A stretch of DNA of 64,000 nucleotides, from NCBI RefSeq assembly GCF_001428805.1, contig NZ_LMIS01000001.1, forward strand, positions 1,238,529 through 1,302,528, given 5' to 3'. A program made the translations under genes and the position numbers. The notes beneath the pieces are model-generated. The model was given only the letters and a program-made list of their open reading frames with translations, did not search any database and had not been told where the DNA came from. This document shows, one piece after another, positions 19,116 through 37,598 of this stretch (position 1 is its first letter; each line of letters starts with the position of its first letter). Source of the stretch: Aeromicrobium sp. Root236 (lineage in GTDB: Bacteria; Actinomycetota; Actinomycetes; Propionibacteriales; Nocardioidaceae).

Positions 19116-19187
19116 GCCCCCGTAGCTCAGGGGATAGAGCGCCGCCCTCCGGAGGCGGAAGCGGAGGTTCGAATCCTCCCGGGGGCG
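19116..19187 (+). tRNA. tRNA-Arg (anticodon CCG)
   Basis: A full cloverleaf is visible: acceptor GCCCCCG / CGGGGGC, D-arm GCTC / GAGC, anticodon arm CCGCC / GGCGG with loop CTCCGGA (anticodon CCG, reading CGG), and T-arm GGAGG-TTCGAAT-CCTCC. CCA is not encoded. The 3' part from the T-arm is repeated three more times downstream at 78-bp spacing. Confidence 0.96.
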
Positions 19188-19420
19188 CAGACCGAACGCA
19201 CAGCAGAACAGAGCGCCGCACTCAACCACACGGCGCAAACGGAGGTTCGAATCCTCCCGGGGGCGCAGACCGAACGCACAGCAGAACAGAGCGCCGCACT
19301 CAACCGCACGGCCCAAGCGGAGGTTCGAATCCTCCCGGGGGCGCAGACCGAACGCACGGCAGAACAGAGCGCCGCACTCAGCCGCACGGCGGAAGCGGAG
19401 GTTCGAATCCTCCCGGGGGC
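19162..19420 (+). repeat. Tandem 78-bp repeats derived from the tRNA-Arg 3' end
   Basis: The T-arm plus 3' acceptor sequence (CGGAGGTTCGAATCCTCC and the following CGGGGGC) starts at 19162, 19240, 19318 and 19396, exactly 78 bp apart. The 53-bp spacers are almost identical and themselves resemble the D-stem/anticodon half of the tRNA (AGAGCGCCGC ... GGCGGAAG), with the loop replaced. The first copy is the functional tRNA. The other three are truncated tRNA-like units lacking the 5' acceptor strand. Open frames across this block in both directions are artefacts of the repeats. Confidence 0.93.
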
Positions 19421-19641
19421 TCCCGGGAGAAGCGCGCTCAGCGCCCCCGACGTCGGCCGCGATGGCAGCCGGCTCCCCACGCCCCGGAACCATATGTTCG
19501 ATTTCTCGCCATCGGGCTAATTGCGGCGGAAAGATGGTCCGATGGTGGGATTCTGCCCTCCAGACCCCGCGCCTAACGTCGCTCCCAACAGACCGGTGAG
19601 GCCCTGTCTCCACGACACCTCACATCAGGACGGAGTCGGCG

Positions 19642-20853
19642 ATGGACGAGACAGAGATTGCGGTGATCGGGGCCGGACCCCATGGACTGGGGGCGACCGA
19701 ACGCCTGCGAGCGGCGGGGCGCGAAGTGTGCGTGATCGGCGACCCCATGGCGTTCTGGCACACCATGCCGAAGGGCCTGTGGATGCGCTCCCGTCGCAAC
19801 GGCTCGTCCATCGGCGAGGTCACCGGGCCGCTGTCGATGGAGGGCTACACGGCCGACACCCAGGCCGTCGTCGACCGGCACCTGAAGCTCACGACGTTCA
19901 TCGAGTACGGCCACTGGTACCAGAACCGCGTCGCTCCCGACGTCATCCGCCGGCACGTCGTCCGGCTCGAGCGTCAGGAGTCCGGCTTCCTGCTCACGCT
20001 CAGCGACGGCACCCAGATGCGGGCTGGTCGGGTCATCTCGGCCACCGGCATCGCCGAGTTCACCCGCCGCCCGGCGATGTTGCGACAGCTGCCGGGCGAG
20101 CTCGCGTCCCACGTCGCCGATCACGGCGACTACGAGCGGTTCCGCGGCAAGAGCGTCGCAATCATCGGAGCCGGTCAGAGCGCACTCGAATCGGCTGCAC
20201 TCATGCACGAGGGCGGCGCCGAGGTCGAGGTGCTGGCCAGGCATCCGCAGGTCCACTGGCTCCACGGCGACGGCCTGATCGACGGCCTCGGTCGCCTCGC
20301 TCCCCTGTTCTACGCGCCGACCGACGTCGGGCCGATCGGGATCTCGCGGCTCGTCGCGACACCTGAGGTGTTCCGCCGGTTCCCGCGGCCGCTGTTCGAT
20401 GTCATCGCCGCTCGGGCGATCCGGCCGGCCGGCGCGTCGTGGCTCAAGCCACGGCTCCCCGACGTCCCCATCACCGCCGGCGCCGTCGTCACCACGGCGA
20501 CCCCGCTTGGCGACCAGCTCGCCCTCGAGCTCTCGGACGGCACCCGGCGTCAGGTCGACCACCTCCTGTTCGCCACCGGCTACGACGTCGACATCCGGCG
20601 ATACTCGTACCTCGACCGCGCGCTGGCCGAACAGGTCCGCTGCGTCGACGGCTACCCGGTCCTCCGGCGGGGTCTCGAGTCGTCCGTGCCGCGACTTCAC
20701 TTCCTCGGGGCTCCAGCCGCCCGGTCCTTCGGTCCGGTGATGCGTTTCGTGGCCGGCAGCTGGTTCAGCTCCAAGGCCGTGGCCAAGACGGTGGCGGCAC
20801 AGGATCGTCGTCGCCCGAGCCAGCCGTCGCCGCGTCACGCGGCGGCCGCGTGA
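19642..20853 (+). CDS. FAD-dependent oxidoreductase / monooxygenase-like (403 aa)
   Basis: This two-dinucleotide-domain flavoprotein has an FAD loop at residues 8-13 (IAVIGAGPHGLG), an NAD(P) loop near residue 174 (VAIIGAGQSALE) and a C-terminal FAD-binding ATG motif (LFATGYDVDI). That architecture is shared with flavin monooxygenases and lysine/ornithine N-hydroxylases. The substrate is unknown. It opens the plus-strand arm of the glycan cluster and overlaps the ATP-grasp gene by one base. A role in modifying an amino or amino-acid substituent before ligation is possible. The start ATG follows GGACGGAG. Confidence 0.85.
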   Translation: MDETEIAVIGAGPHGLGATERLRAAGREVCVIGDPMAFWHTMPKGLWMRSRRNGSSIGEVTGPLSMEGYTADTQAVVDRHLKLTTFIEYGHWYQNRVAPDVIRRHVVRLERQESGFLLTLSDGTQMRAGRVISATGIAEFTRRPAMLRQLPGELASHVADHGDYERFRGKSVAIIGAGQSALESAALMHEGGAEVEVLARHPQVHWLHGDGLIDGLGRLAPLFYAPTDVGPIGISRLVATPEVFRRFPRPLFDVIAARAIRPAGASWLKPRLPDVPITAGAVVTTATPLGDQLALELSDGTRRQVDHLLFATGYDVDIRRYSYLDRALAEQVRCVDGYPVLRRGLESSVPRLHFLGAPAARSFGPVMRFVAGSWFSSKAVAKTVAAQDRRRPSQPSPRHAAAA

Positions 20854-22064
20854 TGACCACGACCGAGACCGGACGCCCTGCCAAGACCGGCGCATCCCGC
20901 GGCGGCCCCGGAGCGTTGGTGATCGGCGGCGACTACCAGGGGCTGGGGATCGCCAGGAGCCTGGGCCGGCGCGGCATCCCTGTCGCGGTGCTCGACGACG
21001 AGGTCTCGATCGCGCCGAGATCGCGGTACGTACGGCACGCCATGAGGGTGCCGACCCTGCGCAGCGCGCAGGCCACGACTGATGCGTTGCACGAGGCCGC
21101 CCGGCGGTTCGGACTGGACGGCTGGGTGCTGTTCCCGACGCGGGAGGAGACCGTGGCCGCGGTGGCGCAGAACCGCGACGAGCTGGCGCGTACGTTCAAG
21201 GTCCCGACACCGTCGTGGGAGACGGTGCGGATCGCCTGGGACAAGCGGCAGACGTACCAGGTGGCCGAGCGGCTCGGCATCGACGTGCCGCGCTGCTGGT
21301 TCCCGCGCGACGAGGCCGACCTGTCCGCGATCCCGATGGACAGCCCCGTGATCATCAAGCCGGCCATCAAGGAGCACTTCTTCTACGAGACCGGGGCGAA
21401 GGCGTGGCGCGCCGACACCCGGGCCGAGCTGGTGCAGAAGTTCCGCGAGGCCACGGCGATCATCCCGGCCGACGAGGTCATCGTGCAGGAGCTGGTCCCG
21501 GGTGATGGCGCGCGCCAGCTCGCGTACTGCGCCTTCGTCAAGGACGGCGAACCGGTCGGCAGCATGACCGTGGTGCGCCGTCGCCAGCACCCGTCCGACT
21601 TCGGCCGGGCGAGCACGTTCGTCGAGACGGTCGACCTGCCCGAGCTCGAGGCGCCGTCGCTCCGCCTGCTGCGGGAGATGGGCTACTACGGCCTGGTCGA
21701 GCTGGAGTTCAAGCGCGACGAGCGCAGCGGGACGGTCAAGCTGCTCGACGTCAACGCCCGGACATGGGGCTATCACGGTCTCGGCGCTGCGGCCGGGGTC
21801 GACTTCGCCGCCCTGCTCCACCAGGACCAGATGGGCCTGCCGGTGCCGTCCTGCCGAGCCCGCGCCGGCGTTCGGTGGGTCCGGCTCGCCACCGACGTAC
21901 CGAACGCGCTGCGTGACATCGCTCGGCGGCGGCTCCGGCTCATGGACTACCTGCGCACGTTGCGCGGGATCGACGTCGGCGCGGTGTGGGCCGCCGATGA
22001 TCCGCTGCCGGCGCTCGCCGAGCTCGGCATCCTGCCCCGCCTCGCCATCCGCCGCGGGCTCTAG
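20853..22064 (+). CDS. ATP-grasp carboxylate-amine ligase-like protein (403 aa)
   Basis: ATP-grasp enzymes activate a carboxylate as acyl phosphate and join it to an amine or thiol. The protein has an N-terminal Rossmann-like pre-ATP domain (VIGGDYQGLGIARSLGRRG), the first ATP-grasp lysine segment (PVIIKPAIKEHFFY, about residue 170) and the metal-binding end EFKRDERSGTVKLLDVNART with the conserved Asp/Asn pair. It resembles CarB-type ligases used in amino-sugar and D-amino-acid modification. ATG 20853 overlaps the upstream stop (TGATG). It may attach an amino acid or amidate a uronic acid of the polymer; this is inference. Confidence 0.82.
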   Translation: MTTTETGRPAKTGASRGGPGALVIGGDYQGLGIARSLGRRGIPVAVLDDEVSIAPRSRYVRHAMRVPTLRSAQATTDALHEAARRFGLDGWVLFPTREETVAAVAQNRDELARTFKVPTPSWETVRIAWDKRQTYQVAERLGIDVPRCWFPRDEADLSAIPMDSPVIIKPAIKEHFFYETGAKAWRADTRAELVQKFREATAIIPADEVIVQELVPGDGARQLAYCAFVKDGEPVGSMTVVRRRQHPSDFGRASTFVETVDLPELEAPSLRLLREMGYYGLVELEFKRDERSGTVKLLDVNARTWGYHGLGAAAGVDFAALLHQDQMGLPVPSCRARAGVRWVRLATDVPNALRDIARRRLRLMDYLRTLRGIDVGAVWAADDPLPALAELGILPRLAIRRGL

Positions 22065-22074
22065 GGGGCATCTC

Positions 22075-23568
22075 ATGTTCACGTCATCGGTCCCCTTCGC
22101 GTTCGCGGACTACATGCGGGTCCCGGTCGTGGTCGACCACACGATGCGCCGCAACCTGCCGAGGCACGTGGGAGCACTGCACGCCACGTCGTCGCCGCTC
22201 GGGCCGAGGCTCCTGTGGGTCCATCCCGAAGACGGTCGACACGCCCCCGGCACCCACGCGGGGCGCCACACGCTCGCCGGCATCGATCTTGCGAGCCCGG
22301 TCTTCACCGGGTCACCTGAGGAGATCGGGTGCCGTCGATGGACCGGGGGTGAGGGGTGGCGGCCCCTCACCCCCGTCCAGAACCTCCACGGCGTGACCGT
22401 GGCGCAGGTCTGGACGAACGATCAGGGCAGCCTCTTCCTGCCCTTCGACCCCGGCGAGGCGATGTCCTGGCTGTGGTCCGAGCGCTACACGACCCTGGGC
22501 AGCGCCGGCCTGCGCAGCCGGCTGCGACATCTGGCCGTCACCCTCTACTACGCGATCCGGCCGGCGCTGCCCCGCAAGCTCCAGCTCCTGCTCCGTCGCG
22601 GCCACGCAGCGCGGCAGACGTACCCGGAGTTCCCCGGCTGGCCCGAGGAGCACTCGCTCCACGACCTCTACGACTGGCTCCTCGACCGGCTCGAGGACGT
22701 CGCCGGAGAGCCGGTTCCGTACCTCCATCCATGGCCGAACGGTCACACGTCGGCGTTCGTGCTGACCCATGACGTCGAGACTGCGGCCGGCCGGGACGCC
22801 ATCGAGGTGCTGCGTGCACCCGAGCGGTCGCGGGGGCTGCGGTCGTCGTGGAACCTGGTGCCCGAGCGATACGAGGTCGCCGACGAGCTGCTCGACCAGC
22901 TGCGATCCGAGGGTTGCGAGATCGGCGTCCACGGGCTGCGGCACGACGGCCGTGACCTGGCGTCGAAGCGCATGCTGCGCAAGCGGCTTCCGGCGATCCG
23001 GGCGTGGGCCGACCGATGGGGCGCTGTCGGGTTCCGGTCGCCGGCCACCCAGCGATCGTGGGAGCTCATGCCGCTGCTGGGCTTCGCCTACGACTCGTCC
23101 TACACCGACAGCGCCCCCCACGAGCCGCGCCCGGGTGGCTGCTGCACCTACCTGCCGTTCTTCATCGACGACCTCGTCGAGCTGCCCCTGACGTTGCCGC
23201 AGGACCACACCTTGTTCGACATCCTCGGGATGACCGACGGGTCCGTGTGGCGGTCCAAGGTCGACGCCCTTCGGTCGCGAGGCGGCATGGTGCTGATGAT
23301 CGCGCACCCGGACTATGTCGACTGCCCGGGAATGCTGCCCGCCTGGGAGGCGCTGCTGGACCAGCTCTGCGCGGATGCCGGCGCGTGGCACGCGCTCCCA
23401 CGTGAGGTGGCCGCCTGGTGGCGCCGCCGGGCCGAGTCGGTGCCCACGCTGTCCGCAGCCGGCTGGGTCGTGCGGGGCCCCGCCGGCGGCGAGGCCGTGG
23501 TGGCGTGGTCGTCGTCGCGAACCGGTCGACCTGCCCAGCTCGCCGACGTGGCGCTCCCGCATGACTGA
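22075..23568 (+). CDS. NodB-like polysaccharide deacetylase domain protein (497 aa)
   Basis: An N-terminal region of about 220 residues of unknown function precedes a divergent NodB (carbohydrate esterase 4) domain. Motif 1 appears as LTHDVE, motif 2 as GVHGLRHDG with the zinc-binding H-x3-H, and motif 3 as GFRSPAT. No signal peptide is seen, so it probably acts in the cytoplasm on a lipid-linked or nucleotide-linked sugar. It lies 10 bp after the ATP-grasp gene and overlaps the glycosyltransferase start by 8 bp. Confidence 0.82.
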   Translation: MFTSSVPFAFADYMRVPVVVDHTMRRNLPRHVGALHATSSPLGPRLLWVHPEDGRHAPGTHAGRHTLAGIDLASPVFTGSPEEIGCRRWTGGEGWRPLTPVQNLHGVTVAQVWTNDQGSLFLPFDPGEAMSWLWSERYTTLGSAGLRSRLRHLAVTLYYAIRPALPRKLQLLLRRGHAARQTYPEFPGWPEEHSLHDLYDWLLDRLEDVAGEPVPYLHPWPNGHTSAFVLTHDVETAAGRDAIEVLRAPERSRGLRSSWNLVPERYEVADELLDQLRSEGCEIGVHGLRHDGRDLASKRMLRKRLPAIRAWADRWGAVGFRSPATQRSWELMPLLGFAYDSSYTDSAPHEPRPGGCCTYLPFFIDDLVELPLTLPQDHTLFDILGMTDGSVWRSKVDALRSRGGMVLMIAHPDYVDCPGMLPAWEALLDQLCADAGAWHALPREVAAWWRRRAESVPTLSAAGWVVRGPAGGEAVVAWSSSRTGRPAQLADVALPHD

Positions 23569-24820
23569 CCTCCGAGGCAGCCATGTCGCCGCGATGGTGC
23601 AGAACGTGTCACTGGCCGACGACAACCGCCTGTGCAAGCAGATCGAGGCGCTGTCCGCAGCCGGCTGCCGGGTCTCGGTCATCACCCGCCGCGACGCGGC
23701 CAACGATCCTTGGCGAGACCTTCCGGGCCTCACACTGATCGAGTACCGGGCGCCTGTCGACGGCGCGTCCACCACGGGCCACCTTCGCGAGTACGCCGCC
23801 TCGCTGGTGCGGCAGATACCCCGGCTGGCCCGGTTGCACCTGCGTGACCGGATCGACGTGCTGCAGATCTGCCAACCGCCGGATCTCTACTTCCCCGTCA
23901 CGGCCGTCGCTCGTCGACTCGGCGTGAAGGTGCTGCTCGACCAGCGGGACCTGATGCCCGAGACGTTCGCGCAGCGATATGCATCCGCACCCGCGCGCGC
24001 GATGCAGGTGCTGCACTGGCTCGAGTCGCGTACGCAGGCCTCCGTCGACGCGACGGTGACCGTCAACGACCACCTGCGCAGTCGGCTGATCGCCGCCGGC
24101 GGCGCTCCCGAACGCGTCCGCGTGGTCCGCAACGGACCCGTGCTGGCACGGCTCGGCCGCGCCCGCGAGGTTGCTCCCCTCCCTAAAGTCTCGCGGGCGC
24201 GGTCCTTCTCCTCGGTCGTGACGTGGGCCGGCAAGATGGGGCGCCAGGACCGCGTCGACGACGTCGTACGCGTGGCCGAGCTGGTGGTTCACGGGTGGGG
24301 CCGCGACGACGTGGGCTTCATGCTGATCGGCAACGGTGAGTGCCTCGACGAGCTTCGACTCATGGTGGACGAGCTCGGGTTGCGCGAGCACGTCTGGTTC
24401 CCCGGCTGGCTCGACGAGGTGGAGCTCTATCGCCACCTCGCGGCCGCCGACGTCGGCATCGACACGTCGCTGCAGCCCGAGGTCACTCCGGTCAAGGCGA
24501 TGGAGTACCTCGGCGTCGGGCTCCCGCTCGTGGCGTACGACGTGCAGGAGACCCGGCGACTCGCCGAGGGCGCCTCGATCCTGGTGGAGCCCGGCGACAC
24601 CGAAGCGTTGGCGCGCGAGCTGGTCGGCCTGCTCGACGACCCTGCGAAGCGGTCCCTGCTCGGCCAGGTGGGCAGCGAACGGGTACGGGTCGATCTCGCC
24701 TGGGAACGCCAGCAGGAGGTCTATCTCGAGACCGTCGCCGGCCTGGTCCACGACCGCCCGAGGAGGGCTACTCCGCGAAGCTCGGCTGCAGCCAGATCCG
24801 GTCCTTCATCAGCGTCTTGA
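23561..24820 (+). CDS. Family 4 glycosyltransferase (419 aa)
   Basis: This is a GT-B fold retaining glycosyltransferase with the C-terminal GT4 signature. VTWAGKMGRQDRVDD starts the donor domain, and PEVTPVKAMEYLGVGLPLVA is the acidic EX7E-type nucleotide-sugar motif. It transfers a sugar from a nucleotide donor to the growing oligosaccharide on the inner membrane face. It starts inside the deacetylase gene and ends 53 bp inside the convergent lysozyme-like gene. It is the only classical glycosyltransferase besides the priming enzyme, so the repeat unit is small or other transferases lie elsewhere. Confidence 0.9.
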   Translation: MTDLRGSHVAAMVQNVSLADDNRLCKQIEALSAAGCRVSVITRRDAANDPWRDLPGLTLIEYRAPVDGASTTGHLREYAASLVRQIPRLARLHLRDRIDVLQICQPPDLYFPVTAVARRLGVKVLLDQRDLMPETFAQRYASAPARAMQVLHWLESRTQASVDATVTVNDHLRSRLIAAGGAPERVRVVRNGPVLARLGRAREVAPLPKVSRARSFSSVVTWAGKMGRQDRVDDVVRVAELVVHGWGRDDVGFMLIGNGECLDELRLMVDELGLREHVWFPGWLDEVELYRHLAAADVGIDTSLQPEVTPVKAMEYLGVGLPLVAYDVQETRRLAEGASILVEPGDTEALARELVGLLDDPAKRSLLGQVGSERVRVDLAWERQQEVYLETVAGLVHDRPRRATPRSSAAARSGPSSAS

Positions 24821-25745
24821 CCCGCGCCGTGTAGTCGCGTGCTGCCGGGATCTCCCAGTCGCCGGCGTACCAGACCCCGACGCATCCCCAGACGTCTCCC
24901 TTCTCGTACCCGTCCCGGTTGCTCAACCACACGATCCAGCCCTCCATGCAGCCGCGCAGGTGTGAGGCGGCGTAGTCCAGCGCGAACGCCGTCGAGTCCC
25001 GGTTGAACGGGAACGTCCCGTTCTGGTTCTGGGCCATCGGGCCCCAGTCCGGGTCCTGCCACGACATGACCCCGATGATCGAGAACGTCCTCGGGCACAC
25101 GCCGTCGCCGTAGTCGCGGCTGTAGTCGTAGCCGAAGCGGTTCAGCTCGGTGCAGAACGTCCTGGACGCCGGAGTCGCACGCTCCACCATGTCTCCGCAA
25201 CCGCGCTTCTCGACACAGGAACCGTTGGACTCCCGCAGGCCCTGGTACCACGTCGACTCCGCGGCGGCCATGGCTCGGAGCAGGTTGTCCGAGATCCCCC
25301 ACTTGCAGGCAGCCCACTGGATGTTCTCGTCCGTGGTCCCGGTGTGCTGTCCACTCACGCGAGGCAGCAGCCAGGTGTTGTAGCGGGACGCGTACGTCGT
25401 GCCGTCGCCGCGCGGGCGCGACGTCAGCGACTTCCGTACGGCGGCCGGGTCCGGTTCGGTGTGGTTGGCTTTGGCGTTGCTGGGCCGGGGCTCCCAGGGT
25501 GAGCGATGCGTCTGGCGGGCGCACTCCTCGTCCGACGGCAGGCTCTTCCACGAGCCCGCGGGCTTGGTGGCGAAGTAGCCGTCGGGGTCAGGAGCCAGCG
25601 AGCCGTCCGGTTGAGCCCTCCGGTCCGAGGCGAGCGTCGAGTCGCGGACGCTGATGGCCACCAGCGACACGACGGCGACGAGCAGCAGCAGTCCGACGAG
25701 GACCGCCCAGAGGCGGCCCTTTCCGGCCACCGCTTGGACCGACAT
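24768..25745 (-). CDS. Membrane-anchored lysozyme/transglycosylase-like secreted protein (325 aa)
   Basis: One N-terminal transmembrane helix (about residues 12-32, LWAVLVGLLLLVAVVSLVAI) anchors an extracellular domain with several cysteine pairs. The segment ISDNLLRAMAAAESTWYQGL resembles the start of an SLT/lysozyme-like fold, with Glu as candidate catalytic acid. The match is weak and the protein may be a non-catalytic relative. It is the last gene of the minus arm and overlaps the Wzz-like gene by one base. A secreted hydrolase at the end of an exopolysaccharide operon usually trims polymer or opens peptidoglycan for export. Confidence 0.6.
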   Translation of the reverse strand: MSVQAVAGKGRLWAVLVGLLLLVAVVSLVAISVRDSTLASDRRAQPDGSLAPDPDGYFATKPAGSWKSLPSDEECARQTHRSPWEPRPSNAKANHTEPDPAAVRKSLTSRPRGDGTTYASRYNTWLLPRVSGQHTGTTDENIQWAACKWGISDNLLRAMAAAESTWYQGLRESNGSCVEKRGCGDMVERATPASRTFCTELNRFGYDYSRDYGDGVCPRTFSIIGVMSWQDPDWGPMAQNQNGTFPFNRDSTAFALDYAASHLRGCMEGWIVWLSNRDGYEKGDVWGCVGVWYAGDWEIPAARDYTARVKTLMKDRIWLQPSFAE

Positions 25746-27241
25746 CAGGCCACCACGGAGCTCGGCGGCTCACCCGCTGCGCCCGGCTTGGGCCGGCGAG
25801 CAGCTTCGGGCTTCCGGCCGGGTGTGGTCACGCCCGAGCGCACGGCCTGGATGCGCTTCTTGTCCGTCCAGACGGGAACGGATGAGGGGGCGGTGGACCG
25901 TCCGGACGTCGGCTCGGGATCCATGGGCGGTGGCGCGATCCGGAACACGGCCTTGCGAACCTGGCGGGACGCCCACTCCCGGACCGAGCCGCTCTCGCGG
26001 CGCGTCCGCCTCCCCCGCGGCGTGATCACGAGACCCATCATCTTGTCGGCGCAATGATCGAGCGCCTGCACGGCGGTCGCCAGCGACTTGCGTGAACCTC
26101 GGCCCAACGCGACCACCAGCAGGATCTTGTCGACCCGCAGGGCGATCCCCGCGCTCGACCAGGCCGGTGGGCCGTCGATGATGATCAGGGCCTCCGGCAA
26201 CCGGTGATGCAGCTCCGGGAGGAGGTTCGTCAGCCTCGCGGCAGCGATCCCGGCGGCATCCCACTCCGCCACCGAGACGAGATGCAGACCCTCCTGCTCG
26301 GCCGGCCGGGTCTCGGGCCACAGGTCCTCGGGGACCTCGTTCTTGCGCTTGGCATCCCGGTCCCGGGACATCCTCGCGACGACCTCGTCGTCGGCGGTCA
26401 CGAGCACGACCACCCGCCCCATCCGCGCGAGGGCGACGGCAGTCGTCGCCGCGACCGCCGTGCTGCCGCAGTCGGTGGCAGCACCCGTCACCAGCAGGCT
26501 GGAGCGGGACCCCTGCTCCACCTCGCCGAGGACGCGCGCGGCCAGCGAGGTCAGCTGTGCACGACCGGCCATGAAGCGGGGATGACGATCGATCGAGGTC
26601 CGCGGCAAGGGCGGTGTCACGACGATGGCGTCGAGACCGGCGCACCGCTCCGCATCGGCGACCGTGCGGATGCGGCCTCGCACTCGGTCCCAGGCCCGCG
26701 CCACGGCAAAGCCGATCAGAAGCCCCGCGACGACGGCTGCGCCCAGGATCACCGGGTAGTTGGTGCCCACGGGGGCAGACGGGCGTTCGGGTGGGCTGAC
26801 GAGGCTCGCGACCGGATTCTTGCCGTCCTCGGGATTGCGAGCCCGCAGGTAGGTCTCGGCGAACACCTTGGCACCCGTCAAGGCCGCGGCAGGCGTGTCG
26901 TCCGTGTAGGACATGACCAGGATCTTGGTGTCCACCGGCACGGTCACCGACAGGTGTCCCATGGCCTGCCTGGACGTCACGCCGAGCTTGGCGGCTGCGT
27001 TGCCGACCACGTCCGCCGATGTCGCGACGCGCTGCTCGGTGGGCATCGACGGCTCGATGTAGTTGCCGCTCGGCGTGATCGTCGGGTCGATCAGGACCTC
27101 CGCGGTCGCCGAGTACTGCGGGACGGACCGGGTGCCCAGCACGGCGACGCCGACGGCCAGTCCCACGGTGATGATCATGACCCAGGCGTAGAGGCGGACC
27201 ATGCCGGTCTCGCGGTCGCTCGGAAGTGTCGATGCCCTCAC
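25745..27241 (-). CDS. Wzz-like chain-length protein fused to degenerate BY-kinase domain (498 aa)
   Basis: Two transmembrane helices (about residues 15-35 and 165-190) bracket an extracytoplasmic Wzz-like domain. A cytoplasmic domain with the fold of bacterial tyrosine kinases follows. Where functional kinases have GKST, this protein reads TDCGSTAVA, without the Walker A lysine. The Walker A' position reads VVLVTAD, without the first Asp. Only the Walker B region ALIIIDGPP is normal, and no tyrosine cluster ends the protein. It is probably a structural regulator of polymer length without kinase activity. The start is GTG at 27241 behind AAGGAG, overlapping the ligase stop by 4 bp. Confidence 0.82.
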   Translation of the reverse strand: MRASTLPSDRETGMVRLYAWVMIITVGLAVGVAVLGTRSVPQYSATAEVLIDPTITPSGNYIEPSMPTEQRVATSADVVGNAAAKLGVTSRQAMGHLSVTVPVDTKILVMSYTDDTPAAALTGAKVFAETYLRARNPEDGKNPVASLVSPPERPSAPVGTNYPVILGAAVVAGLLIGFAVARAWDRVRGRIRTVADAERCAGLDAIVVTPPLPRTSIDRHPRFMAGRAQLTSLAARVLGEVEQGSRSSLLVTGAATDCGSTAVAATTAVALARMGRVVVLVTADDEVVARMSRDRDAKRKNEVPEDLWPETRPAEQEGLHLVSVAEWDAAGIAAARLTNLLPELHHRLPEALIIIDGPPAWSSAGIALRVDKILLVVALGRGSRKSLATAVQALDHCADKMMGLVITPRGRRTRRESGSVREWASRQVRKAVFRIAPPPMDPEPTSGRSTAPSSVPVWTDKKRIQAVRSGVTTPGRKPEAARRPKPGAAGEPPSSVVA

Positions 27242-28713
27242 GGTGCTTCTCCTTGGATAGATGGCTGCTGTCGACGTCGGGTGTTCTCGATGACGCGACT
27301 GCCGCACGCAGACAGCGCCAAGAGACCGAACAACGCGTCGGCCGAGCCGCGGTAGGTGATGTGCGGGTCGAAGATCATGAGCACGACGCACGAGACGAGA
27401 CCGGTGTACGCGGCCAGGGCGGCGACCGCTGACGGGGTGGCCAGGAGGCGGGCGGCCGGACCGGTCGCCTGGAGACTCCGCCACACGAACCAGCAGAACG
27501 TCGCCAGCAACGGAAGCCCGCCGCCCCACAGCAGCCACAGGTATCCGCTCTCGATCCAGACGTAGCCGAAGGCGCCTTCGTCGATCGGCACCCGCGCTGC
27601 TGGCCGCACGCCGACGAGGAAGTTGCTGCCGTCGACGATCTGCGGCCAGAAGTACGTCGACAGGTTGTGGTAGCGCACCAGCCAGCTCGTGGGCATGCCG
27701 TGCAACGACGAGAAGTCGGCGAGGCGGGGCGCGATGGTCGGCCACAGCACCGCGACGGCCACCGGCAACGCCACGACGGACCACTTGAGCAGGTCGAGGC
27801 GTCGCAGCCGGACGGCAACGCACACGAGGGCGATCACGAGGCCGAGAGCGCTGGAGAACTCGGCGGCCGAGAAGACCGACACGACGAAGACCAAGGTCAT
27901 GGGAGCGAGGCACCAGGCCAGGGCCGGCCGCCTGTAGAGCATCCCGAGAGCGATCACGAGGTTGAGCACCATGAGGTCGGCCGTCGCCGCAGGCAGTCCG
28001 ACCGTGGACCCGGCCCTGGCCGACTGCACGACATCGGTGTAGCCGAACGGCGCGAACAACGGCTCGAGCAGCGCACGTACGCCCAGCAGGTCGAGCGACT
28101 GCAGGATGCCGATCACGCCCACCAGCACCCCTGCGACCAGCGACACCCACAACGCGATCGTCACCTCGCGCTCGCTGCGGATCGTCAGCCGGACGACCGC
28201 GTACAGGAGGAAGAACTTCCACATCACGACGGCGTACGTCAGGTCGTCCATCTCCAGCGGCCGGCCGCGAGCCACGAGGAAGACGATCGGGATCAGCGAG
28301 GACGCGAGGGCGAACCACACGAACGCCCGGGACATCGGATCGAGGCGCAGCTGACGCAGGCGCCAGGGATGGCGCTGCAGCACAGCGCGGACGCACAGGA
28401 CGCCGACGAGGAAGAGCGTCAATGCCTCGTTGACACGCATCTGGGGCACGAGCCGGCCGCGGTCGATCCCGACGACCAGCGGGGTGATGCCGACGATCGC
28501 GTACGCGGCGACAGCCGGACGGCGCCAGACCGCCGTGGCGAGCGCCGCGACCAGCAGCAGGCCGAGGCAGGCCACGGGCGCGGTCACCGCGAGCAGACCC
28601 GCTCCCACAGCGGTCGCGAAGCCCAGCACCAGGACGACGAGCGCGCGCCGACGGTCGGACCGGTCCGCCCGGGACAGGACCGATCCGTGGTCCTCCACGA
28701 GGAGGGCGCTCAT
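27238..28713 (-). CDS. O-antigen ligase / Wzy-like polymerase membrane protein (491 aa)
   Basis: This integral membrane protein has about 11-12 hydrophobic helices and a larger extracytoplasmic loop near residues 340-400 (RYHNLSTYFWPQIVDG, then GYVWIESGYLWLLWGGGLP). That matches the Wzy_C/O-antigen ligase topology. It would polymerise or transfer lipid-linked repeat units on the outer face. The ATG at 28713 overlaps the flippase stop by four bases, and its own stop overlaps the Wzz-like gene. Such close coupling of flippase, polymerase and length regulator is typical of Wzx/Wzy pathways. Confidence 0.85.
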   Translation of the reverse strand: MSALLVEDHGSVLSRADRSDRRRALVVLVLGFATAVGAGLLAVTAPVACLGLLLVAALATAVWRRPAVAAYAIVGITPLVVGIDRGRLVPQMRVNEALTLFLVGVLCVRAVLQRHPWRLRQLRLDPMSRAFVWFALASSLIPIVFLVARGRPLEMDDLTYAVVMWKFFLLYAVVRLTIRSEREVTIALWVSLVAGVLVGVIGILQSLDLLGVRALLEPLFAPFGYTDVVQSARAGSTVGLPAATADLMVLNLVIALGMLYRRPALAWCLAPMTLVFVVSVFSAAEFSSALGLVIALVCVAVRLRRLDLLKWSVVALPVAVAVLWPTIAPRLADFSSLHGMPTSWLVRYHNLSTYFWPQIVDGSNFLVGVRPAARVPIDEGAFGYVWIESGYLWLLWGGGLPLLATFCWFVWRSLQATGPAARLLATPSAVAALAAYTGLVSCVVLMIFDPHITYRGSADALFGLLALSACGSRVIENTRRRQQPSIQGEAP

Positions 28714-30329
28714 GCCGGGGTCGATTCGGTCACGACCTGCCCGCGTGCTCCCTGGAGCAGCCACGTCAGCTCCACCGATCCGAAGGACCGGTGCACACCC
28801 AGATAGACGGTCACACCGGCCACGGTCGCGGCGACACTGGCGGCGACCAGACCGGCGGTGCCGTCCAGCACGACCATCGCCGCAGCAGCGACCGACAGCG
28901 CGACCGAGGACATCACGATGCCGGCGCAGCACGTACGCGCCAGCGACGGCAGCAACCGGTCGGTGGGAGGGGCGAGCCCTCGGCGTACGCGGAGCGACAG
29001 GTCCACGCCGCCCACGACGGACGCCACGGCGAGCGCCGCGCCGAGGGCGGCGACCAGGGCCGTCCCGTGGAGGAACGCAGCGGGTACGACGAGCGCGCCG
29101 CAGACCGCGGCCTGCACCATCATCGAGCGCAGCGGGGATCTCGCATCGCCCCGCGCGTAGGCAGCCTGGGTCGAGATCACGAACAGGGTCTCGCCGATGA
29201 GCCCGAGAGCCAGGGCACTGAGTGATCCGGCCACCATCGCCACGCCTGCGTCGGTCGACATCTGCCCCGCTGCCACGATGTTTGCCAGCGGAACCGCCAG
29301 CACCAGATAGCCGAACGCGGCCGGGACCATCAGGAACAGGGCCAGCCCGATCGCTCTCTGGTAGGCATCGGCGAACTCCGTCGCCTCCCGCTCTCCGGTC
29401 ATGCGGGACAGCCTCGGCAGCAGGGCCAGGCCCACCGGAGCAGCCGCGATCGCGAGTGGGAGGTGGTAGAAGCTCAGCGACATCTGGAGGGCCACCGTCC
29501 CGCCCGCCGCCCGGCCCGCGACGGCCAGGAGCAGGAGGATCTGGGCCGCCAGCAGGCCGGCCTGGGTCATCGAGGCGACCGCGCGCCGTACGACCTGGCG
29601 GACGTCCGCGTCGCGCCAGCCCGCTCGTGGCACCAGCGTGACGCCGCACCGGCGGGCGGCCCACCACTGCACACCGGCATGCACCGCCACGGCGACCGTC
29701 GACCCTCCGCCGATCAGGAGCACCGCACCCGTCGGCACGGCTCCGTCGACGGCATCGCCGTACAGCCGGCCCGCCATGACCAGCACGGCGATGACTCCGA
29801 GGTTCTCCAGCGCCGGCGCAGCGGCGGCCAGCAGGTAGCGGCGCCGCGCGTACATCACAGCGGTGGCGGAGGCGACCATGGCGTAGCAGAAGACCTGCGG
29901 GATCGCGAGGACGGCGAGCGCCAGCGCCGCGTTCCCGTTCGGCAGCAGCAGCGGCACTGCGAGGACCGCGACCGGGGCGACCACCACGAGGATCGACCAC
30001 TCGACGCCGAGGAAGCCTCCGGCGATCCGGCCGGTCTCGTCGCTGTCGCCGGCGTCGATGTGTCGCACCAGCGCAGGAACCAGCAACGACGACAGCAACG
30101 ACCCGGCCAGGAAGCCGTAGAACACGAGGTTCGGCAGCACGTTGGTGAGCTGATAGGAGTTGCCGAAGTACGTCGGGCCGAGCACCGCACCGATCACGAT
30201 GACGCGGGCGAGCCCCGTCACCCTGCTGACCATGGTCCACACGGCGACCGTCATGGTGTCCCGGGCCGCGCCGGCCCCGATGGAGAGGTCGTCGGACGCG
30301 AACGGCAGGACAGCCGTGCCGCGCGTCAT
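28710..30329 (-). CDS. MurJ/MviN-type lipid II or polysaccharide flippase (539 aa)
   Basis: This MOP-superfamily membrane protein has 13-14 predicted helices. The MurJ-like N-terminus contains SRVTGLARVIVIGAVLGPTY and the conserved charged loop ARRRYLLAAAAPALENLGVI. It would flip undecaprenyl-linked repeat units across the membrane, the Wzx role. It resembles MurJ more than classical Wzx. The gene context, not the sequence, argues for the polysaccharide substrate. The ATG at 30329 overlaps the sugar-transferase stop by 4 bp. Confidence 0.86.
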   Translation of the reverse strand: MTRGTAVLPFASDDLSIGAGAARDTMTVAVWTMVSRVTGLARVIVIGAVLGPTYFGNSYQLTNVLPNLVFYGFLAGSLLSSLLVPALVRHIDAGDSDETGRIAGGFLGVEWSILVVVAPVAVLAVPLLLPNGNAALALAVLAIPQVFCYAMVASATAVMYARRRYLLAAAAPALENLGVIAVLVMAGRLYGDAVDGAVPTGAVLLIGGGSTVAVAVHAGVQWWAARRCGVTLVPRAGWRDADVRQVVRRAVASMTQAGLLAAQILLLLAVAGRAAGGTVALQMSLSFYHLPLAIAAAPVGLALLPRLSRMTGEREATEFADAYQRAIGLALFLMVPAAFGYLVLAVPLANIVAAGQMSTDAGVAMVAGSLSALALGLIGETLFVISTQAAYARGDARSPLRSMMVQAAVCGALVVPAAFLHGTALVAALGAALAVASVVGGVDLSLRVRRGLAPPTDRLLPSLARTCCAGIVMSSVALSVAAAAMVVLDGTAGLVAASVAATVAGVTVYLGVHRSFGSVELTWLLQGARGQVVTESTPA

Positions 30330-31003
30330 CGAGCGCCTCCGCGAAGCAGGGTCAGCGGGGTGAAGAGGAGGATCAGCAGGTCGGTCCGCAGTGCACACTT
30401 CGCGACGTACTCGACGTCGAGGCGCAGCCCGTCGACCATCGTGAGCCGGTTGCGGCCGCTGATCTGCCACAGGCCGGTCAGTCCCGGCCGCACGAGGAAG
30501 CGAGAGGACGCCGAGACCGGGAACAGCTCGACCTCCCACGGGAGGGCTGGTCGCGGGCCGACCAGGGACATGTCACCGCGCAGCACGTTGACGAGCTGAG
30601 GCAGCTCATCGATGCTGGTGCGCCGCAGCAGGCGACCCACGCGGGTCACACGCGGGTCGTTGTCGAGCTTGAACAGGCCGTCACGCGAGCGAGGATCGCC
30701 GCCCGCCATCATCTGCCGGACGAAGGCCTGGTGTGCTTCGTGCGAGCAGTCCTTGGCCATCGTGCGGAACTTCAGCACGACGAACGGCTGCTGCAAGGCT
30801 CCGACCCGGACCTGGCGGAAGACCCCGCTCCCCCGGCTGGTCGCCCGCACCGCGACGTACGCCAGCAGCATCACCGGGGACAGCACGACCAGCAGGACCG
30901 CCGCGATCACGACGTCGAACGCCCGCTTGCCCACGTACTGCCGGACCTCGCGGCGTTGCCGCGCTCGTCCGGGGCGACCATGCTCAGCCGGCCATGCACT
31001 CAT
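30326..31003 (-). CDS. Undecaprenyl-phosphate sugar-1-phosphate transferase
   Basis: This is the priming enzyme of polymer synthesis, moving a sugar-1-phosphate from its nucleotide to undecaprenyl phosphate. The 225-residue protein is the short form. It has one N-terminal membrane hairpin (FDVVIAAVLLVVLSPVMLLA), then the bacterial sugar transferase motifs VVLKFRTM, SIDELPQLVNVLRGDMSLVG and PGLTGLWQISGRN. No N-terminal sensor domain is present. It overlaps both neighbours by 4 bp. Confidence 0.94.
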   Translation of the reverse strand: MSAWPAEHGRPGRARQRREVRQYVGKRAFDVVIAAVLLVVLSPVMLLAYVAVRATSRGSGVFRQVRVGALQQPFVVLKFRTMAKDCSHEAHQAFVRQMMAGGDPRSRDGLFKLDNDPRVTRVGRLLRRTSIDELPQLVNVLRGDMSLVGPRPALPWEVELFPVSASSRFLVRPGLTGLWQISGRNRLTMVDGLRLDVEYVAKCALRTDLLILLFTPLTLLRGGAR

Positions 31004-31644
31004 GGCAGCGGCTCCTCGCCACCCGGAGCATCGTCCACTCGGAGGGAGTAGCGGTGCCCGGCGGGACGTGCGGCGCCATCGACGCGGTCCTCGACCGGCA
31101 CCAGGTCCGCGACCCGGCCCTGGACCCGGGCGGGGTTGCCGAACGCCACCACGCCAGGTTCGACGTCGCGGGTCACCACCGATCCGGCGCCGATGATGGC
31201 ACCCTCGCCGATACGCACGAACGGCAGGACGGTCACGTTGACGCCCAGCTGGGCGCCCGCCCCGATGAGCGGCCCGGACATCACCTCCCGCGAGCCCTCC
31301 TGCCCGGGGTAGAGATCGTTGGCGATGCTCACCCCGGGGGCGAGGAACGCCCCGTCGCCGATCTCGGTGTACTGGGCCACGTAACAGTTGCAGTGGATCT
31401 TGACGCCGTCGCCGATGACCGTGCCGTAGTCGATCACGGTGTTGCTCCAGATCGACACGTCGTCACCGAGCTCGCAGTCCTCGCGGATCACGACGTTGTG
31501 GCCGGTCTCCAGCCGTTCGCCGATGCTGCACCCGCTGTAGACCACGGTCCCGCAGCGCAGGAACCCTCGACCCCAGGGACCGTAGGCCCAGCCGTCCTCC
31601 TCAGAGAGGAAGACCTGCCGGGGCTCAGTCTCCGGGCTGGTCAT
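31000..31644 (-). CDS. Hexapeptide-repeat N-acetyltransferase (WbpD-like)
   Basis: This is a left-handed beta-helix acyltransferase of 214 residues with successive hexapeptide turns (GTVVYSGCSIGERLETGHNV, VIGDGVKIHCNCYVAQYTEIG, IGEGAIIGAGSVVTRDV). It follows a DegT aminotransferase and a Gfo/Idh dehydrogenase, the same trio that in Pseudomonas makes UDP-2,3-diacetamido uronic acid (WbpB, WbpE, WbpD). N-acetylation of a 3-amino nucleotide sugar is therefore the likely role. Its start overlaps the aminotransferase 3' end by 20 bp. Confidence 0.88.
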   Translation of the reverse strand: MTSPETEPRQVFLSEEDGWAYGPWGRGFLRCGTVVYSGCSIGERLETGHNVVIREDCELGDDVSIWSNTVIDYGTVIGDGVKIHCNCYVAQYTEIGDGAFLAPGVSIANDLYPGQEGSREVMSGPLIGAGAQLGVNVTVLPFVRIGEGAIIGAGSVVTRDVEPGVVAFGNPARVQGRVADLVPVEDRVDGAARPAGHRYSLRVDDAPGGEEPLP

Positions 31645-32812
31645 CGAGAGACTCCAGGTCTGCCGTGATGTGGCCGAGCGCTTCGCAGACCCGCATCACG
31701 TCGGCGTCGGGCAGGCTCGGGTAGAGCGGCAGGGACAGGATCTGGCCAGCCAGCCGCTCCACGTTCGGCAGCACGCCCGGCGACCACTGCTGGTACGGCT
31801 CCAGCTGGTGGCACGGCGTCGGGTAGTGGATTCCGGACCCGATCCCGAGGGCGGCGAGCTCGGCTCGTACGCGATCTCGCTGCGGAACCCTCACCACCAT
31901 GAGGTGGTGGGCGCCCGCACACTCCTCGAGCTGACCCAGCGGCACCACCGTCGGAGGAAGCGCAGCCGCGTACAGCCGTACGAGCCGCCTGCGATCTTCG
32001 TTCCACTGGTCCAGGTGCGGCAGCTTGGCCGACAACGTCACGGCCTGGACCGTGTCCAGCCGACTGTTGGTCCCGATCCGCACGTGGTCGTAGTGCCGGT
32101 CCTCCGAGCCCCCCGGACGACCATGGTCACGCATCGAACGGATGCGCTCGGCGATGCCCTCGTCCGAGGTGACGACGGCGCCGGCGTCTCCGAAGGCCCC
32201 CAGGTTCTTGCCGGGATAGAAGCTGAAGCAGCCGACGGCCCCGAACCCTCCGGCGCGGATGCCGCGCCACGTGGCCCCGTGCGCCTGGGCGGCGTCCTCG
32301 ATCAGGACCAGGCCGTGCTGTGTCGCACAACGACCGAGGGCGTCCATGTCGGTCAGTTGGCCGAACAGGTGCACCGCGACGATGGCGCGCGTCCGGTCCG
32401 ACACCGCGGCCTCCACCTCTGCGGCACCCATCAGCCCGGTGTGCAGGTCGACGTCGACGAATCGAGGGATGGCGCCCACGAGCACGATGGCCTCGATCGT
32501 GGCGACGAACGTGTTGGCGGGCACGATGATCTCGTCCCCGGCCCCGAGCTCAAGGGCGCGCAGGGCCAGCACCAGCGCGTCGGTGCCGTTGCCCACGCCC
32601 ATCGCGTACTCCGTGCCGCAGTAGTCCGCCCACTCGTCCTCGAACGCCTTCACCTGCTCGCCGCCGACGAAGCGGTTGGAGGCGATGACCTTCTCCCAGC
32701 CGACGCGCACCTCGGTCGCGACCACGGCGGTCGTCGTGCCGAGGTCGAGGAACGGCACCGAGTCGAAGGGGGGAACCGGGACCGGCGCCATCGCAGCTAC
32801 GCCCGCACTCAT
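31625..32812 (-). CDS. DegT/DnrJ/EryC1-type sugar aminotransferase (395 aa)
   Basis: This PLP-dependent enzyme aminates a keto nucleotide sugar, usually with glutamate. The Schiff-base lysine is in CFSFYPGKNLGAFGDAG. The PLP phosphate and ring contacts appear as NGTDALVLALRALELGAGDE and VLIEDAAQAHGA. The start ATG at 32812 overlaps the Gfo/Idh stop by four bases. Directly after a predicted sugar dehydrogenase and before an N-acetyltransferase, it probably installs the 3-amino group. Confidence 0.92.
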   Translation of the reverse strand: MSAGVAAMAPVPVPPFDSVPFLDLGTTTAVVATEVRVGWEKVIASNRFVGGEQVKAFEDEWADYCGTEYAMGVGNGTDALVLALRALELGAGDEIIVPANTFVATIEAIVLVGAIPRFVDVDLHTGLMGAAEVEAAVSDRTRAIVAVHLFGQLTDMDALGRCATQHGLVLIEDAAQAHGATWRGIRAGGFGAVGCFSFYPGKNLGAFGDAGAVVTSDEGIAERIRSMRDHGRPGGSEDRHYDHVRIGTNSRLDTVQAVTLSAKLPHLDQWNEDRRRLVRLYAAALPPTVVPLGQLEECAGAHHLMVVRVPQRDRVRAELAALGIGSGIHYPTPCHQLEPYQQWSPGVLPNVERLAGQILSLPLYPSLPDADVMRVCEALGHITADLESLDDQPGD

Positions 32813-33933
32813 CCGGCCGCCTCCTCGTGGGAGGCGCCGCTCAGGATCGTGGGAGCCGCGCCGGCGGACGCACCGGCGAGTGCCGGCGCGGGCGTGAACG
32901 ACTCCGAGCGCCCCGGCAGGCGAACCGCGACACCTTCGGACATCGCACGTTGCGCCGCCTCCAGCACCCGGACCACCCCGAGCCCGCTCTCGCCGTCGGT
33001 GAGCGGGCGCAGCCCGGTCTGCACACAGTTCAGGAAGTGCTCGTCCTCGACGCGCAGCGGCTCGTTCATCTCCAGGTAGGGCGAGACGATGTCGCCGTGC
33101 CGGTACGACATGGGGACCGCGGTGAGGTCGGCGCCGTCGCTCATGGCGGTGACGCCCTTGTCGTGCACCTTGACGCGTTGCTCGGCCTTGAGGTCGTCGA
33201 ACACGACCATCTTGTTGCTGCCGACCATCGTGACCTGGCGGATCTTCTTCGGGTTGAGCCAGCTGACGTGCACGTTCGCGAACACGCCGGGGTCGTCGTA
33301 GTAGAGCCGCAGCTGCGCGACGTCCTCGAGCCGGGGGTGCGCGTTGCGTGCTCCCCAGCACTCGACCATCGACGGCGACGAGCCGAGCACGTAGTTGAGG
33401 ATCGAGATGTCATGTGGTGCGAGGTCGAAGACCACGTTGACGTCGCGCTGGTACAGGCCCAGGTTGAGCCTCGCCGTGTCGAGGTAGTAGAGGTCGCCGA
33501 GATCGCCTCGCTGCACCATCGACCGGAGCTCCCAGACCGCCGAGTGGTACTCGAAGGTGTGCCCGACCATCAGGGTCACGCCCTTCTTCTCGGCGGCTCG
33601 CACCATGGCCTCGCACTCCGTGACCGTGGGTGCCAAGGGTTTCTCCACCAGCACGTGGACGCCGCGTGCGATGGCCTCCAGCGCGAGGGGCGCGTGCAGC
33701 GTCGGAGGCACGGCGATGATCACCGCGTCGAGCTGTCCCAACGCCTCGCTGAGGGTCCTGTACTCGTCGACCCGCGGATAGACGCGGGTCACGGCACCGC
33801 GTCGCTCGTCGCTGGGATCGATCACGCACACGCGTGACACTGCTTCCAGCGACAGCAGGGTCCGTACGTGCTTCGAACCCCAGTACCCGCACCCGACGAC
33901 TCCGACTCGAAGTCCTTGCTCTGCCTTCATCAC
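32809..33933 (-). CDS. Gfo/Idh/MocA-family sugar dehydrogenase (374 aa)
   Basis: This is an NAD(P)-dependent oxidoreductase with the Rossmann loop VGVVGCGYWGSKH at the N-terminus and the family's catalytic EKP motif in VLVEKPLAPTVTE. It probably oxidises C3 of a nucleotide sugar to give the keto substrate for the following aminotransferase, as WbpB/WlbA do. It is the first gene of the eight-gene minus arm. The start is GTG 33933 or ATG 33930, with a distant GAGGAA site. No UDP-sugar 6-dehydrogenase is in the window, so the uronate donor would come from elsewhere. Confidence 0.9.
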   Translation of the reverse strand: MMKAEQGLRVGVVGCGYWGSKHVRTLLSLEAVSRVCVIDPSDERRGAVTRVYPRVDEYRTLSEALGQLDAVIIAVPPTLHAPLALEAIARGVHVLVEKPLAPTVTECEAMVRAAEKKGVTLMVGHTFEYHSAVWELRSMVQRGDLGDLYYLDTARLNLGLYQRDVNVVFDLAPHDISILNYVLGSSPSMVECWGARNAHPRLEDVAQLRLYYDDPGVFANVHVSWLNPKKIRQVTMVGSNKMVVFDDLKAEQRVKVHDKGVTAMSDGADLTAVPMSYRHGDIVSPYLEMNEPLRVEDEHFLNCVQTGLRPLTDGESGLGVVRVLEAAQRAMSEGVAVRLPGRSESFTPAPALAGASAGAAPTILSGASHEEAAG

Positions 33934-34388
33934 TCACTCGCATTCCTCGCGGCGAGCGGCTTGGCGGAGCCGTCTCATGACTTGCTGACACCCGCTACTT
34001 CACTACGGGGACCGGGTGTCCGCAATGGCACGATCGGTGGGTCCGCAAGCGCCGAATTCGCACATCGTGCACTCTTCGCAAGAGCCCTTGGTTGCGGATT
34101 CCGTGGCGCCAGGCCTTCGACTCCTCGGATTCGTTCGAATCCCGGGGGGATAAATAGGTGAATACCCGACAACATCCGGGCAGTTGCGTGATGATGTCGA
34201 CACGTCGCGTGCCGTTGCACGTGGTCGCGAACGTGTATATGACTGCTAGGACACAAGTGATCCACCGGCGGCACAACTGCCGGGGACCGACGAAAGGGGT
34301 ACGCGGTGCACACAACCACCACAGCGCATGTGCCGGTCACATCCGGAGCGGCGATACCAGGGGATCCCGGTGTGAGGAGCGACGACGG
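33934..34388. promoter_or_regulatory. 455-bp divergent regulatory region between glycan operon and LuxR gene
   Basis: No gene is seen here. The region is AT-richer than its surroundings, with TA-rich patches at 34149-34156 (GATAAATAG) and 34233-34240 (TGTATATG), candidates for divergent promoters. TTGCAC with a TATATG-like element follows at 34213-34238. The heptamer TTGCGGA occurs three times (34025-34019 and 34048-34042 inverted, 34092-34098 direct). A short CGGCA / TGCCG hairpin lies at 34269-34282. It probably houses the promoter of the minus glycan arm and that of the LuxR gene. Confidence 0.5.
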
Positions 34389-37094: not shown

Positions 37095-37315
37095 ACCATG
37101 GTGACGCCATTTCTCGTTGCGATGGCGGCAAACCACAGGCGATGCGGGTCCCCGCATCCGTCGGATTCGGGCGATTGCGGACGCCCGTAGGACTTCGGCA
37201 ATCCTGTTGTCGCCCCCTCCTGGACACCTGCATTGTCGTCACTAGTCCCGGACCAGTCCAACGGCTTGCCCGGGACAGGAACATCAGGCTCGAAACAACA
37301 ACAGGGGAGTTTTTC

Positions 37316-37390
37316 ATGGCCAATGATCAGATGGCACGCACGTCGCGCTCGGCTCCGCCCCGGCACGACTCGCAGCACGGGGGAATCTGA
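37316..37390 (+). CDS. 24-residue leader ORF upstream of the BldC-like gene
   Basis: ATG at 37316 follows a strong AGGGGAG site. The frame encodes 24 residues (MANDQMARTSRSAPPRHDSQ and four more), and its TGA is one base before the ATG of the BldC-like gene. The downstream gene's own site, GGGGGA, lies inside the last codons of the leader. Translation of the two should therefore be coupled. It may be a leader peptide that meters BldC-like synthesis. The peptide matches nothing known to me. Confidence 0.55.
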   Translation: MANDQMARTSRSAPPRHDSQHGGI

Positions 37391-37391
37391 G

Positions 37392-37598
37392 ATGAAGGTG
37401 GTCAACTCCCCAGACATGCTGATGCGCCCGGCCGAGGTCGCGGCGATATTCGACGTGCACACCAAGACGGTGTGCGAGTGGGCCAACGCGGGAAACCTCA
37501 CGGTGATCCGGACCATGGGCGGGCACCGGCGCTACCTGCGCGCCGAGGTCATGGCCCTGCGCAACGCGAAGGTCACCCTCCGCCGCTGGAAGGTCTGA
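37392..37598 (+). CDS. BldC-like MerR-type DNA-binding protein (68 aa)
   Basis: This small single winged-helix protein matches the Streptomyces developmental regulator BldC and phage excisionases. MRPAEVAAIFDVHTKTVCEW is the HTH and GGHRRYLRAEV the wing. BldC binds cooperatively to direct repeats and acts as activator or repressor. A coupled 24-codon ORF precedes it. Position beside a glycan cluster and a LAL regulator suggests control of surface differentiation. An excisionase role is less likely, as no integrase is nearby. The local 220 bp upstream holds a single TTGCGGA element at 37175. Confidence 0.86.
   Translation: MKVVNSPDMLMRPAEVAAIFDVHTKTVCEWANAGNLTVIRTMGGHRRYLRAEVMALRNAKVTLRRWKV

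Follow-up and report, generated by a model that had tools for sequence, protein, structure and literature searches.

Tandem truncated copies of tRNA-Arg(CCG) directly behind their own gene in Aeromicrobium sp. Root236, and related repeats behind other tRNAs of the genus

Introduction

The sites behind tRNA genes are known landing spots of mobile DNA, and the copies of tRNA tails that are found there in Aeromicrobium are probably scars of insertion. Partial tRNA copies left by integration are described as pervasive (PMC9897764), and the Islander work (PMC4383910) places the crossover subsites in the anticodon loop, the T loop and the junction of the T arm with the acceptor stem. In Dehalococcoides, according to PMC3146451, tandem islands are bounded by repeats of the 3′ end of ssrA. 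The classic, and little understood, example of repeated tRNA tails is tyrT of Escherichia coli. At the tyrV locus of E. coli K-12 we re-measured the exact repeats of the final 19 nt of tRNA-Tyr, three in number, which lie at +159, +337 and +515 (period 178), and the tyrV-rttR locus carries annotations for a non-coding RNA, RttR, and for the tpr frame.

How do the repeats found in Aeromicrobium compare with these systems, and how might they have arisen? The stretch analysed here (the window) comprises 64,000 nucleotides of Aeromicrobium sp. Root236 (contig NZ_LMIS01000001.1, positions 1,238,529 to 1,302,528), a genome whose ArgS neighbours place it in this genus.

The array behind tRNA-Arg(CCG)

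A tandem array of truncated tRNA-Arg copies with a 78-bp period, first noticed in a sequence-only reading, was confirmed with ARAGORN and with Tandem Repeats Finder, which reports positions 19154-19420 with period 78, 3.4 copies, 95% matches, 0% indels and a score of 485. tRNA-Arg(CCG) is the single tRNA that ARAGORN calls in the window, and no second Arg-CCG call was found among the scanned tRNAs of this genome. The units directly abut the gene, head to tail (Table 1). The GGAGG that opens the T arm starts at 19163 in the tRNA and at 19241, 19319 and 19397 in the units; the 78-bp spacing originally described therefore holds, whereas the starts lie one base later than had been given. Alignment to the tRNA also bore out the proposal that each unit is a tRNA body lacking the 5′ acceptor strand: AGAGC from the 3′ side of the D stem, the 5′ strand of the anticodon stem, the variable loop, the T arm and the 3′ acceptor strand are kept; the 5′ third is gone, with the 5′ acceptor strand and the greater part of the D arm; the anticodon loop is replaced in all three units; and the 3′ strand of the anticodon stem is altered in units 1 and 2. 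Past the end of unit 3 the sequence is no longer related to units 1 and 2. By eye, it has GCGCTCAGCGCCC and GACG in common with hairpin units of a second kind (described below) that stand behind tRNA-Arg(CCG) in the genome 9AM, which makes it a possible, if weak, candidate for a decayed unit of that kind.

Table 1. Features of the array and its surroundings (window coordinates)
Feature	Position	Strand	Remarks
tRNA-Arg(CCG) gene	19116..19188	+	ARAGORN; Rfam tRNA model 68.4 bits
Unit 1	19189..19266	+	spacer, altered anticodon arm, T arm and 3′ acceptor strand
Unit 2	19267..19344	+	built as unit 1
Unit 3	19345..19420	+	built as units 1 and 2; ends at the final acceptor-stem base (GGGGGC)
Possible decayed second-kind unit	19421..19455	+	by-eye comparison with 9AM hairpin units
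Gene cluster	19489..38632	.	polysaccharide-synthesis-like by eye from translations; Pfam on first gene only

Pairwise differences between the units number 3, 5 and 4 over 76 positions. There are six variable columns, none of them inside the 24-nt T-arm/acceptor stretch, and random placement produces such a pattern with p = 0.094. The contrast of a perfect T arm with a drifting spacer, which had been taken as a sign of selection, thus falls short of significance and is only suggestive within this array. Over longer times it is stronger, the 24 nt being those of the own tRNA in all ten aligned units of the window's kind (type 1), drawn from five genomes and three tRNAs. An assembly artefact is an unlikely source of the array, because the genome is one contig, the units can be told apart and the separately assembled sibling Root344 has an array too.

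Type-1 units in related genomes

The locus was compared across relatives for copy number and for integrated elements. In the sibling Aeromicrobium sp. Root344, tRNA-Arg(CCG) is followed by two whole units, spaced 67 bp apart, and a broken third, so that spacer and unit length are not constant between siblings (78 bp versus 67 bp); in A. ginsengisoli about 135 kb of inserted DNA is found (see below). Among 80 named ArgS records, a set to which the window's own genome does not belong, 75 have tRNA-Arg(CCG), and a 3′ repeat stands behind it in four of these 75 loci, all four belonging to the 14 records that bear the label Aeromicrobium; the repeat of Root344 is of the window's kind and those of the other three are of the second kind. 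A strict pattern for the repeated T-arm/acceptor stretch, covering the Arg T-arm type only at spacings of 34-64, matched 3 of 294 genomes of the family (the window's own, Root344 and genome G031) and 1 of 394 genomes of the class, the window's own, in a sample outside which Root344 and G031 fall.

Type-1 units are also found behind other tRNAs. tRNA-Arg(CCT) is followed by three of them at period 80 in G031 and by one of 93 bp in G042, with a partly masked case in G022, and tRNA-Glu(TTC) is followed by one in both the window genome and 9AM. Throughout the three tRNAs, the tRNA-like part runs from about nt 21-22, the loop is changed and one stem is kept. Across 56 nt, the Glu units of the window genome and 9AM show 4 differences, every one within the loop region, which again strengthens the contrast over longer times; the sequences that precede them look unrelated. 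The array is real and recurrent, and the phenomenon extends through the genus Aeromicrobium. Two smaller observations belong here. A palindromic repeat, GGTTGAGGTGCGGAGGCCGCCAGCGGCCGAAGCCTCGAAACC, precedes the Glu unit of the window genome; we take it to be of the REP-like type that is common in actinobacteria. In genome G018, the 3′ end of tRNA-Arg(CCT) is repeated over a very short length (TCTCGGGGGCACC) directly behind the gene, possibly a nascent case.

Hairpin units and a survey of tRNAs

In a unit of the second kind, the tRNA 3′ end, starting at about nt 60, is joined to a linker, GGGAGGA-palindrome-CGACGGAGTC, and an inverted copy of the tRNA 3′ end precedes the linker. This pattern occurs at 30 sites in 18 of 49 Aeromicrobium genomes. 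A same-strand ARAGORN tRNA lies upstream at 21 of the 30 sites; three others form the displaced array of A. ginsengisoli, and the remaining six have no tRNA in the locus. One base longer, the pattern GGGAGGA-palindrome-CGACGGAGTCC has 20 sites in 10 of the 49 genomes; outside the genus, 8 of 245 other genomes of the family contain it, at one site each. A single linker is common to different tRNAs. At ten loci, behind tRNA-Arg(CCG), Arg(TCT), Leu(CAG) and Ala(GGC) of several Aeromicrobium genomes, we observed GGGAGGA-palindrome-GACGGAGTC or close variants joined to the tRNA 3′ end. tRNA-Gly(CCC) and tRNA-Gly(TCC) each have at least two downstream units in both the window genome and Root344, in which GGCGAAGCCGCC-like palindromes are flanked by the tRNA 3′ end in both inverted and direct orientation.

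Own 3′ copies within 400 nt downstream are found for 6 of 50 tRNAs in the window genome and for 4 of 46 in Root344; in the single family genome of another genus that was surveyed, 2 of 45 tRNAs have them, both more than 350 nt away. Upstream, the counts are 1 of 50, 1 of 46 and 0 of 45, and swapped-pair controls gave 33/2446, 25/2066 and 39/1974, respectively. A looser look added tRNA-Leu(CAG) of the window genome to the unit-bearing tRNAs. Together with tRNA-Val(TAC), it presents a filled site in the window genome and an empty one in Root344, the unit being placed between the tRNA 3′ end and a trailer that both genomes have in common. The Leu(CAG) unit brings a different terminator hairpin, and the hairpin of the Val(TAC) unit is related to the native trailer.

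Where does the identity between unit and tRNA begin? With the numbering counted from the 3′ end, it begins at nt 38-40 in window unit 3, in Root344 unit 1 and in one Arg-CCT unit each of G031 and G042, which make up half of the eight type-1 units tested; the other four (window units 1 and 2 and both Glu units) start at nt 45-48. The Val and Phe units start at nt 55, five families (Arg-CCG, Arg-TCT, Leu, Ala and Gly-CCC) at nt 60, and Gly-TCC at nt 62. Genuine insertion junctions lie at nt 54 (Arg-CCG of A. ginsengisoli) and nt 33 (Glu-TTC of Root344 and 9AM). The starts fall near the Islander subsites in most families, the type-1 units that start at nt 45-48 being the exception.

Integrated DNA at the same tRNAs

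In A. ginsengisoli, about 135 kb separate tRNA-Arg(CCG) from its array of second-kind repeats. The far junction reads ACAGATTCGAATCCTGCCGGGGGCGC and is adjoined by a tyrosine integrase gene (PF00589, E 9.1e-9, Pfam), which supports the T arm/3′ end of tRNA-Arg(CCG) as a used attachment site (attB) in the genus. Copies of tRNA-Glu(TTC) that resemble an attR are found about 53 kb away in Root344, about 21.6 kb away in 9AM and, on the copy side only, in G034; all three begin in the anticodon loop and have a common left flank. The Glu(TTC) copy of A. ginsengisoli has a different left flank and lies 2 kb away. Behind tRNA-Glu of Root344 there is also a tyrosine-integrase motif, a match at motif level only. 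In 9AM a type-1 unit follows the Glu attR after 67 bp, and the insertion therefore entered between tRNA-Glu and the unit. The idea of a stacked attachment site, put forward when the array was first noticed, accordingly stands in so far as the 3′ end of tRNA-Arg(CCG) has served integration in the genus; as for the stack being in working use, the observed insertions used the tRNA rather than a unit, and the locus yielded no integrase.

At the window locus, neither an integrase gene nor an element lies between tRNA-Arg(CCG) and the units, which follow directly, and scans of up to 5.5 kb behind 91 tRNA-Arg(CCG) genes, many of these loci being shorter, gave no integrase motif. Within the window genome, plausible motifs stand behind Thr-CGT, Thr-TGT, Gln-CTG/Glu-CTC and Leu-TAA; one behind the Trp tRNA looks spurious, and the motif scan gave none behind the unit-bearing tRNAs. 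The tyrosine-integrase motif behind tRNA-Thr(CGT) and tRNA-Thr(TGT) lies 1284 nt away in each case, in the window genome as in Root344. A donor attP would share the left flank of the units, and a search of phages, plasmids and IMG/VR returned no unit-like DNA. The two IMG/VR matches to the bare T-arm/acceptor 24-mer sit inside ordinary genes, for tRNA-Asn and tRNA-Leu, and were set aside as donors.

The gene cluster behind the array

The gene cluster that follows the array in the window (Table 1) is collinear in 9AM through to the genes beyond, starting there about 1.2 kb behind the array, and in A. ginsengisoli, where it starts about 12 kb from the array, collinearity was seen over the first 7.9 kb. 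Root344 is without the cluster: its array breaks inside a unit and within 10 bp reaches a gene that lies beyond the cluster. On the simplest reading, this 19-kb difference would reflect a deletion in Root344 that has one of its ends within the array, and a tRNA locus can in this way gather short direct repeats where large deletions end. That the cluster is a recent tRNA-integrated island is rejected because of its collinearity in 9AM and, in part, A. ginsengisoli, and because no tRNA fragment was seen, by eye, at its far end. Between array and cluster, the lone integrase motif match of 9AM is broken by stop codons and looks like chance, and the roughly 12 kb of A. ginsengisoli gave no match. 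Elsewhere in the window, a 92-bp tandem repeat at 13647-13818 (1.9 copies, 96% matches) contains GGTTCGACC-like pieces and overlaps the start of a 192-aa ORF that resembles, by eye, a MerR-type regulator.

Possible origins of the units

The explanation that we rate highest, and hold just as likely to be right as wrong, is that the units are displaced 3′ fragments of tRNAs, produced by integrase-type events, stripped of their cargo and then amplified in place. An integrase acting at the tRNA would supply it with a new 3′ end and push the old one downstream; later loss of the cargo would leave a short stretch ending in a tRNA 3′ copy, an attR-like scar with which each unit may have begun; and slippage or unequal exchange between the direct repeats might then multiply the unit, to three here and to two plus a piece in Root344. 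This sequence of events is consistent with the identity starts near subsites (nt 38-40, 55, 60 and 62), the integrase of A. ginsengisoli, the filled and empty Val(TAC) and Leu(CAG) sites and the excess of own 3′ copies downstream over upstream (6 versus 1 and 4 versus 1). Against it stand the lack of an integrase at the locus and of a donor attP in the searches above, the integrase motifs of the window genome behind tRNAs that bear no unit, the use of the tRNA rather than a unit by the insertions seen, and the half of the tested type-1 units that start at nt 45-48. Moreover, a plain attR leaves unexplained the tRNA-like sequence to the left of the loop, the replaced loop itself and the inverted copies of the second kind. 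An origin from attachment sites is partly supported.

It is precisely the tRNA-like sequence left of the loop, which extends to about nt 21 in the type-1 units found behind three tRNAs, that speaks for plain tandem duplication of a tRNA with its trailer. Here a copy would have lost its 5′ acceptor strand, D arm and anticodon loop, slippage would have amplified the relic, and recency or conversion by the tRNA would account for the identical T arms, all without an integrase, in keeping with the failure to find one at the locus. In Val and some Ala units, moreover, the trailer is akin to the native one or resembles it. The different terminator of the Leu unit, the one linker common to hairpin units of different tRNAs and the recurrence of identity starts at the same nucleotides all argue the other way, and we consider this origin somewhat unlikely.

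Might the units instead be insertions in their own right? Broadly put, Aeromicrobium would possess very small cassettes of an undescribed class, empty of cargo, whose specific target, whatever the enzyme, is the gap that separates a tRNA from its terminator; each would bear a copy of the 3′ end of its own tRNA with fixed cut positions, at about nt 60 or in the T loop or anticodon loop, the tRNA would stay whole while units stack behind it, and the window array would be one sub-class. We regard this broad version, which overlaps both with integration scars and with the narrower version that follows, as improbable. The narrower one, genus-specific cassettes of this kind moved by an undescribed enzyme, seems to us more doubtful still. 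The distribution of the CGACGGAGTCC linker, concentrated in Aeromicrobium as against the rest of the family, the 21 of 30 shorter-pattern sites behind same-strand tRNAs and the filled and empty sites are in its favour; yet its linker kind differs from the type-1 unit of the window, nine of the 30 sites are tRNA-less or belong to the displaced A. ginsengisoli array, and no mobiliser was identified. In particular, a Y1_Tnp (PF01797) transposase was found in 0 of 49 Aeromicrobium genomes, with 5 of 14 control genomes positive, and mobilisation of the RAYT/REP type is rejected on this ground.

A role at the RNA level, with units co-transcribed with the tRNA and released by cleavage as small RNAs, would fit the equivalent layout in E. 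coli K-12 with its annotated RttR, the 24 nt that all ten aligned type-1 units keep and the folding of three hairpin-bearing units, which surpasses that of shuffled sequences (z -2.71, -3.83 and -2.53). Type-1 units, by contrast, fold no better than shuffles, with z +0.39 and +0.84 for window units 2 and 3, +0.23 for Root344 and -1.31, -0.04 and -0.81 for others, and spacer and unit length vary between siblings; we judge this role very improbable. A tRNA-like decoy, also raised by the sequence-only reading together with a covariance check, is not supported by this folding or by the Rfam tRNA model, which matches no unit up to E = 5. The array is open in several frames (78 = 3 x 26), and a coding reading is rejected because the 67-bp spacing of Root344 keeps no frame. 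Terminator-like hairpins occur on the minus strand of the window array (three versus 0.5 expected) and in the Root344 array (three, two of them in one unit, versus 0.3), but antisense terminators are dismissed as a general feature, since the Arg-CCT arrays have none. An origin by reverse transcription, with units starting near modified tRNA bases, was also considered.

Comparison with known systems

A literature search, mostly at the level of titles and covering few subscription papers, returned no title announcing such arrays in Aeromicrobium. The nearest layout is tyrV-rttR of E. coli: there, as in tyrT, a tRNA is followed by direct repeats each ending in its own 3′ end, and the first repeat copy is the tRNA itself, as it is in the Aeromicrobium array. 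The E. coli copies, however, span 19 nt including the encoded CCA, whereas the Aeromicrobium units comprise about two thirds of the tRNA and have the anticodon loop replaced; and where E. coli has the tpr frame annotated, the open frame of Aeromicrobium is lost at the spacing of Root344.

With an attR, as described in PMC4383910 (Islander) and PMC9897764, the units have in common that they are partial 3′ copies on the same strand, downstream of a whole tRNA. Their identity starts lie near the subsites given in the former in most families, but not in half of the type-1 units tested. Unlike an attR, they are several and in tandem, tens of bases rather than an element lie between tRNA and fragment, the locus is one at which no integrase was found, and the loop sequence is not that of the tRNA. 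The ssrA loci of Dehalococcoides, as described in PMC3146451, likewise have several direct repeats of the 3′ end of an RNA gene behind that gene, with a conserved mismatch between gene and repeat; they differ in that the repeats are of 20 bp, the islands bear genes and lie within 100 kb, and the integrase is a serine recombinase. With its many polymorphic cases, its sites both with and without a unit and, at some of these tRNAs, integrated DNA, Aeromicrobium makes the origin of such repeats testable. Unusual features are the small size of the units, the substituted anticodon loop seen in three tRNA families and how many tRNAs of a single genus are affected.
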